From Lycium barbarum (taxonomy: Eukaryota > Streptophyta > Magnoliopsida > Solanales > Solanaceae): 64,000 nucleotides of DNA. The position numbers and the translations under genes were made by a program. Where the stretch lies: positions 11,447,205-11,511,204 of the forward strand of contig NC_083345.1 in the NCBI RefSeq assembly GCF_019175385.1, read 5' to 3'. Below are positions 46,401 to 47,562 of the stretch, one piece after another (within the stretch, counting starts at the first letter, position 1; the number at the start of each line of letters is the position of its first letter). The notes under the pieces were generated by a model. That model saw only the letters and a program-made list of their open reading frames with translations, had not been told where the DNA came from and ran no database searches.

Positions 46401-47435
46401 ATCTTTGTCATAGCAGACATGACGGTTTGCACCAGAATCAGCCCACCATCCATCAACATTTTCAACCATATTTATGTCTGTTATCACCGCCACAAGTGGC
46501 TCTTCGGTAACGTTCGCCTGAGGTGTAGGACCACGTTTCCGAAACTTGCAAAATCGAGCAATATGCCCACTCTTGCCACAGACAAAGCATGGTCCTCTAT
46601 TTTGTGCTTGTTGATTTTGTGCTTGGTTGATACCACTATTATTATTCTTGGGAGGTCTACCGTTATTTTTCTTAAATATTTTCTTCTTAGGCTTCATAGA
46701 GGTATTTTTGTTAGCATTAGGAGCAGCATTATTTGAAGTAATTAAATTTACCTTATTTGTGACGGGTTGTAAGTTGCTCTCTTCCGTTTGCAAAAGTGCA
46801 TCTTGGCCCCTTGCTTCTTCCTCCATGCGGATTCGCATAATCAACGTCTCAAGAGAGGTTTCCTTTTGTTTGTGGCGCATATTTTTTTGAAATTCCTTCC
46901 ATGAAGCTGGAAGTTTATCTATTATGCCACAAACAATAAGGTTATCCCCAATTTTTATATCCTCGGACCTGAGCTCTCCAACGATCATTATAAAATCTTG
47001 GGCTTGGTCTGCCACTGATTTGTTGTCCACCATTTGGAAACGAAAAAATCTACTAGCAGCATATTTTTTCGCTCCAGCCTCCTCGGTATCATATTTACTC
47101 TGCAACGCTTTCCATATTTTCTTTGCAGTAGAGTAAGTTCTATCATAATAATCATAAAAATTATCTGATAGACAATTAAGTAAATAATACCGACACTTGT
47201 ATGAATCTTCATCGTACTGTTCAGTTTTTTCTTGAAGAGAAATAAGTTCTTCATCATTCATGGAAGTGTTGTCTATTTTATTTGGATTCTTCTCAGTTAA
47301 CACATAAGAAACATTGAGAAGACTTAAGTAGAAAAGTACTTTACCCTTCCATCTCTTAAAATGAGTACCGTTGAACCGAAATGGCTTGTTAAGATCTCCT
47401 ACTTTGACATCCGCCGATTTTTCAATTGTAGCCAT
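43478..47435 (-). pseudogene. Copia gag-pol polyprotein, one frameshift and an integrase active-site substitution
   Basis: Read from ATG 47435. Gag domain, CCHC knuckle (CFVCGKSGHIARFCK, coding about 46540-46590), protease DSGANRHVC, GAG-pre-integrase finger (HARLCH...CEACSKAK), integrase core with SDRGREYES and GVAERKNRT, reverse transcriptase with LDIHQMDVKTAF-type block and YVDDLLIFG, then RNase H (TDADWNTLSGD, MEAELIAL). The first integrase aspartate, normally in IHTD, is Tyr521 (codon TAT at 45875-45873), a one-base change from GAT, so this copy should not integrate by its own enzyme. A frameshift near 44330 separates 47435-44307 (1,042 codons) from 44257-43478. Otherwise all domains are intact. 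Confidence 0.93.
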
Positions 47436-47562
47436 TTGAATCTCCTTAAAATTGTTGGTGATCTTGCAGTGAAATTACAATTACAATTGAAAAATCACAA
47501 TGAAGCAATAAAAATTTTTATGGCTGAGGCGCGGATATCTCGCTCTCTTTAAGGAGATTCAA
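47416..47562 (-). promoter_or_regulatory. Two interleaved 15-bp inverted repeats at the 5' LTR/gag junction
   Basis: Plus-strand order: B1 GATTTTTCAATTGTA (47416-47430, gag codons 2-7), A1 TTGAATCTCCTTAAA (47436-47450, the leader between LTR and ATG), B2 TACAATTGAAAAATC (47482-47496, in the LTR), A2 TTTAAGGAGATTCAA (47548-47562, in the LTR). A1/A2 and B1/B2 are each perfect reverse complements, in the crossed order that would make a pseudoknot in the transcript. A1 lies 2 nt from the LTR edge, where a primer-binding site is expected. Confidence 0.8.

Follow-up and report, generated by a model that had tools for sequence, protein, structure and literature searches.

A probably self-primed Ty1/copia element in Lycium barbarum with crossed inverted matches at its primer-binding site

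Retroelements that prime reverse transcription from their own RNA have been described or predicted in several groups, and the closest to the element considered here are found among plant Ty1/copia elements. In their passages on the TAR lineage, Neumann et al. 2019 (PMC6317226) predicted self-priming and cited an earlier proposal of it for Houba and Osr-1; the primer site of these elements is complementary to their own LTR, and in the same passages the case for plant copia rests on that complementarity. Self-priming by a plant copia element is therefore not new, and the statement in a sequence-only reading of the present locus that no such element was known has to be withdrawn. In the Tf1/sushi group (Tf1, Tj1), according to the relevant parts of PMC4600332 and PMC7175516, the primer is likewise made by cutting a 5′ part of the mRNA that has paired with the primer site. 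The 5′ pseudoknot of Ty1 contains a stem between the 5′ R region and a part of the RNA that lies downstream of the primer site; in the sections of PMC4974528 that treat it, this stem is needed for efficient initiation of reverse transcription, while the fungal GalEa copia elements, in the corresponding sections of PMC5445492, lack a tRNA primer site and carry an inverted repeat at that position. TARE1 and Tos17, as far as the excerpts concerning them go, have primer sites of the tRNA type.

The present element lies on the minus strand of the window, by which we mean the whole 64,000-nucleotide stretch of DNA analysed, and all of its features given below are on that strand. Its LTRs (5′ LTR 47453–48124, 3′ LTR 42253–42924) are 672 bp each, run from TG to CA, differ from each other at three positions and have TTATA on both outer sides; these ends and the 5-bp target duplication are those of the Ty1/copia superfamily, and the near-identity of the LTRs together with the matching flanks indicates that the element is young. 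Its 1042-aa gag-integrase-RT frame, taken from the open reading frame list (44307–47435), gave Pfam matches to gag, then to rve at residues 527–613 and to RVT_2 at 833–1033, which places the integrase before the reverse transcriptase in the copia order. The polyprotein of the window copy is broken between 44257 and 44307, and the list continues it in another frame (43478–44257), a piece for which no Pfam match was found. A purine-rich stretch adjoining the 3′ LTR (42925–42935) is the likely polypurine tract. Only 17 nt separate the end of the 5′ LTR from the gag start codon (47433–47435). This leader does not contain the iMet primer-site word TGGTATCAGAGC, as the sequence-only reading had stated, and the element is thus not a tRNA-iMet-primed copia. 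The same reading had credited the two other LTR elements of the window with an iMet site, which is borne out for one only: the word occurs without mismatch once in the window (19876–19887, minus strand), and 3236–3247 has one mismatch; at up to two mismatches the word occurs three times in the window, against a mean of 3.2 in shuffles.

Several features of the surrounding DNA were recorded in passing. AACCGG/CCGGTT words are densely arrayed directly beside the 5′ LTR (48370–48560), where they form numerous overlapping inverted repeats, followed on the plus strand by a 377-aa open reading frame (49164–50297) that, by eye, we take to have a BED-finger-like start and a hAT-like C-terminus. Elsewhere in the window, perfect inverted repeats of 57 bp and 39 bp, one nested in the other, flank a short centre (14132–14438) and perhaps represent a foldback or MITE-like element, and further perfect inverted repeats of 18–25 bp, spanning about 150–330 nt, occur at 29696–30030 and 38626–38890.

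Two perfect 15-bp inverted matches, first reported in the sequence-only reading, were recovered at the junction of the 5′ LTR and gag. The first joins an internal stretch of the LTR, arm A (47548–47562), to arm A′ in the leader (47436–47450), which begins at the third leader base and abuts the gag ATG; a 16th pair, a G.U wobble between 47547 and 47451, lengthens this stem. The second joins arm B, near the 3′ end of the LTR (47482–47496), to arm B′ inside gag (47416–47430), which covers codons 3–6 together with the last base of codon 2 and the first two bases of codon 7; as in the first match, all 15 bases are complementary. In the RNA the order is crossed: A (47562–47548), B (47496–47482), A′ (47450–47436), B′ (47430–47416), with the gag AUG between A′ and B′. 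Duplex energies are approximately −18.6 kcal/mol for A and −15.5 kcal/mol for B. The minimum-energy fold, from programs that score only uncrossed forms, contains B, with A′ in the loop that B closes.

We consider it probable that this is a self-primed Ty1/copia element, most likely of the TAR lineage, in which A serves as the primer and B acts as a clasp that keeps the primer site looped and, in elements with a short leader, hinders gag translation. Arm A of the 5′ LTR RNA would pair with A′ directly after the LTR, and a putative cleavage 3′ of A (..UUAAA^G, between 47548 and 47547) would leave a free 3′ end, annealed at the primer site and facing U5. Minus-strand DNA would start at that end, with the 97 nt between the cut and the primer site as the strong-stop template. 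Known LTR elements renew their primer site by copying the primer, and copying from A would here keep A and A′ matched in new copies. Stem B would bracket A′ and keep it in the loop, so that A, with B formed, would pair with this loop in a crossed A-B-A′-B′ fold; where B′ overlaps or adjoins the gag AUG, the priming fold should also hinder translation of the same RNA. The cleavage, the priming, the copying from A, the simultaneous formation of both stems and the effect on translation are all deduced from sequence. The sequence-only reading had offered primer and pseudoknot as alternatives; both ideas are retained, and primer and pseudoknot more probably belong together in a single structure.

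Relatives were sought within the window's own genome (1.67 Gb). Of 610 candidates from a DNA search, 40 were scored, at 93–100% identity, and other families were reached by protein searches using database homologues, for a total of 73 loci fetched. Hits to Solanum and Capsicum proteins were among the results, which suggests a member of the Solanaceae. These gave seven families: F1, the window element and its copies (among them L035); F2 (L048–L060); F3 (L061); F4 (L063); F5 (L065/L066); F6 (L067/L068); and F7 (L071 and a second copy, L072). Eight of 12 fetched regions contained stem A, and in two (L062 and L064) none was found; L069 is an F1 copy with a deleted stretch of LTR, arm A of L070 would fall outside the fetched stretch, and L073, which lies inside a long leader, was uninformative. 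Two scans of viral contigs, one with the window polyprotein and one with P0006, returned no relatives.

Stem A was perfect, at 13–15 bp, in all seven families, and A′ always began 2 nt after a CA, which marks an LTR end proven by paired LTRs in F1 and placed by the CA itself in the other families. The 13-mer is identical in F2 and F7, which leaves six distinct sequences; across the families 10 of the 13 aligned pairs show more than one Watson-Crick type, and each A pairs with its own A′ at 13/13 positions, compared with a mean of 8.6/13 between families. The exact F1 pair occurs at 67 sites in the genome (control, 0). In F2, where the gag motif could be located in 10 of 13 loci, A′ and both B arms were kept in all 10 and arm A matched in nine. 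The boundary of the stem is informative as well. The base after A is G in all seven families, and in six of them the next pair outside the stem, p0, is G.U; among 36 distinct F1 rows (out of 46 loci rows) p0 was G.U in 32, G-C in three and A-U in one. As p0 stays G.U rather than becoming G-C, the primer probably ends at p1, with the cut 5′ of the invariant G, the three F1 rows with G-C being the exception. The far end of the stem is variable (the outermost pair in F1, pair 14 in F2), as would be expected if a core of some 13 nt is what is copied.

Other features of these leaders and LTRs stand apart from this comparison. The F2 leaders examined (L048–L057) carry GTTTAAGGAGATTAAAAC some 50 nt past their own A′, a sequence similar to the F1 primer site. 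In F5, L065 has about 120 nt more than L066 between A and A′ (197 vs 78 nt), with the A′ sequence kept, and AAGTAACAGT is repeated near its LTR end. By eye, a 7-bp stem encloses arm A in F4 (GGCTTTG/CAAAGCC, L063) and F5 (GGCTTAG/CTAAGCC, L065 and L066); it is possible that this is a third stem that presents the primer in a loop.

The evidence for stem B is of moderate strength. We took up to 80 nt preceding A′ and the 60 nt following it, found the longest Watson-Crick helix joining the two and set it against 2000 shuffles. The helix was 15 bp in F1 (p = 0.0005), 11 bp in F2 (p = 0.006), 12 bp in F3 (p = 0.0015), 10 bp in F4 (p = 0.021) and 10 bp in F7 (p = 0.012), the F7 stem being the same as that of F2, so that the significant stems comprise four unrelated sequences (F1, F2/F7, F3 and F4). 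It was not significant in F5 (5 bp, p = 0.97), F6 (6 bp, p = 0.74) or the second F7 copy (6 bp, p = 0.95), and the iMet-primed controls, of which the examined sequence contained only two distinct sites, gave p = 0.995 and 0.19. The combined Fisher probability over F1–F6 was 5e-6. The sequence-only reading had looked to compensatory changes as a check on both stems; these were found for A across families, whereas B recurs with unrelated sequence in some families, which is not pair-by-pair covariation. Since B has no copying mechanism to keep its arms matched, such recurrence speaks for selection on the structure, while its absence from F5 and F6 limits the claim.

The most serious rival accepts A as the self-primer and takes B to be a coincidence in the AT-rich sequence of several families, with no pseudoknot formed; we regard this as unlikely, if deserving real weight. 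It can point to the three negative helix tests and to a set of weaker statistics. When G.U pairs were allowed, F1, F3 and F4 remained at 0.007–0.02, and significance was lost in F2 (0.37), F7 (0.24) and the F1 copy L035 (0.14). A gapped helix score gave p = 0.005 in F1, 0.045 in F2, 0.03 in F3, 0.18 in F4, 0.95 in F5, 0.08 in F6, 0.20 in F7, 0.42 in L072, 0.065 in L035, 0.13 in L056 and 0.18 in an iMet control (Fisher 0.0012, or 0.016 without F1). In folded RNA, pairs enclosing the primer site showed no significant excess (p from 0.06 in F6 to 0.70 in F5), total fold energy was significant in F1, F2 and F3 only (p = 0.030–0.045), and RNAduplex energies between U5 and leader, from a run that did not include F2, were mostly not significant and leave B undecided. 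Against coincidence, the helix test keeps a Fisher probability of 0.00046 even without the discovery family F1, and B adjoins the primer site in every family where it was found. On the gapped score, moreover, the real U5 surpassed all of the 80-nt LTR control windows taken upstream of A, with F5 and L072 the only exceptions among 10 rows. It is also kept in 29 of the 36 F1 rows: with G.U allowed, 25 have both stems in full, four only B, five only A and two neither, so that 11 rows lack one or both full stems. A 13-bp B occurs at 93 genome sites (control, 0).

The position of the gag AUG bears on a second rival, in which the crossed stems would serve gag translation or RNA packaging, functions discussed for the Ty1 pseudoknot, and priming would occur at another site. 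In favour of such a role, the AUG lies between A′ and B′ in F1 and inside B′ in F3, and in F4 it stands 6 nt past A′, adjoining B′; the Ty1 5′ pseudoknot, in the sources on it, binds Gag. In F5 the AUG is 5 nt past A′ and there is no B. F2, F6 and F7, by contrast with the short-leader families, have a long leader with the AUG far off, and B′, where B was found, lies in the non-coding leader; this suggests that B is tied primarily to the primer site and that a short leader is what brings it to the AUG. A′ occupies the exact primer-site position in seven of seven families, these three included. The sequence-only reading had singled out the gag start as a place where a tRNA might match, and the only TGG in the leader that would fit a tRNA end is indeed there; no tRNA-shaped 3′ end in the genome matches it. 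We therefore judge this rival improbable.

A tRNA or tRNA fragment might instead prime from the leader, with the LTR match incidental, and there is precedent in that most other plant copia groups use tRNA-Met and some use half tRNAs, according to PMC6317226 in the part concerned. The A′ sequence varies between families, always matching the family's own LTR, and a tRNA-shaped pattern ending in CAATTGTAG, which covers 3′ ends rather than internal fragments, had no match in the genome; no tRNA-shaped 3′ end matching TGGCTACAATTG was found there. That stem A is kept despite sequence change is evidence for an internal primer and against a tRNA primer common to the families, and tRNA priming seems to us very improbable. 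Self-priming as the meaning of stem A, proposed in the sequence-only reading, is thus well supported by its covariation, its position after the LTR and the lack of a tRNA-shaped match. Finally, that the matches arose by chance, as functionless inverted repeats or DNA hairpins, is scarcely credible even in so AT-rich a region. When the 181-nt region was shuffled 1000 times with dinucleotides preserved, no perfect inverted run exceeded 12 (a length seen in two shuffles) and 15 was never reached, as had been anticipated for two 15-bp matches; seven families, moreover, have stem A in the same position, which refutes this explanation for A, though not for B.

Self-priming through stem A, a strong and essentially known reading, brings the element closest to the TAR lineage, with which it shares a primer site whose complement lies in its own LTR rather than in a tRNA. 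The passages on TAR in PMC6317226 describe no second crossing stem, cut-site inference or gag AUG, all of which enter into the reading proposed here. Membership of the Tf1/sushi group was considered and rejected, as the domain order is that of copia and not that of a Ty3/gypsy polyprotein. Tf1 is Ty3/gypsy and its primer is the first 11 bases of the RNA (PMC4600332 and PMC7175516, in the parts cited above), whereas the duplex here has 15 bp and a TATA-like box, identified by pattern match (47823–47829), lies 267 nt upstream of A, with boxes 113–228 nt upstream in F2–F5 and no match in the stretches of F6 and F7 that were scanned. Unlike in Tf1, the primer would accordingly lie inside the RNA; from 30 nt past the box to the gag ATG of the F1 element there is no ATG. 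Ty1, in the sections cited, is primed by tRNA-iMet and its 7-nt stem joins the 5′ end of the RNA to downstream RNA, where the present element would use the 3′ end of the LTR. The GalEa hairpin is a short palindrome, for which the authors, in the sections cited, found no complementary inverted repeat in U5, unlike here. Passages of PMC2206039, PMC4659654, PMC3601003 and PMC5338827 contained nothing on self-primed plant copia elements, and no crossed or clasp stem in such an element appeared among the matches listed from open-licence PMC papers.

The covariation of A and A′, the single cut site indicated by the G.U boundary and the proposed clasp near the AUG make self-priming directly testable, with defined predictions in the primer end, a strong-stop DNA of about 97 nt and the two stems. 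If B occludes the AUG, it would be a simple way of reserving retroelement RNA for copying over translation. A broader proposal, that a self-primed plant copia combines its primer duplex with a second stem clasping the primer site (and the gag AUG as well in families whose leader is short), so that one fold would decide between translation and reverse transcription, is advanced tentatively, as an idea we think more doubtful than probable. To the earlier work on self-primed elements the present analysis adds a comparison across families within one genome, and a second, crossing stem that is possibly a new part of the priming machinery.
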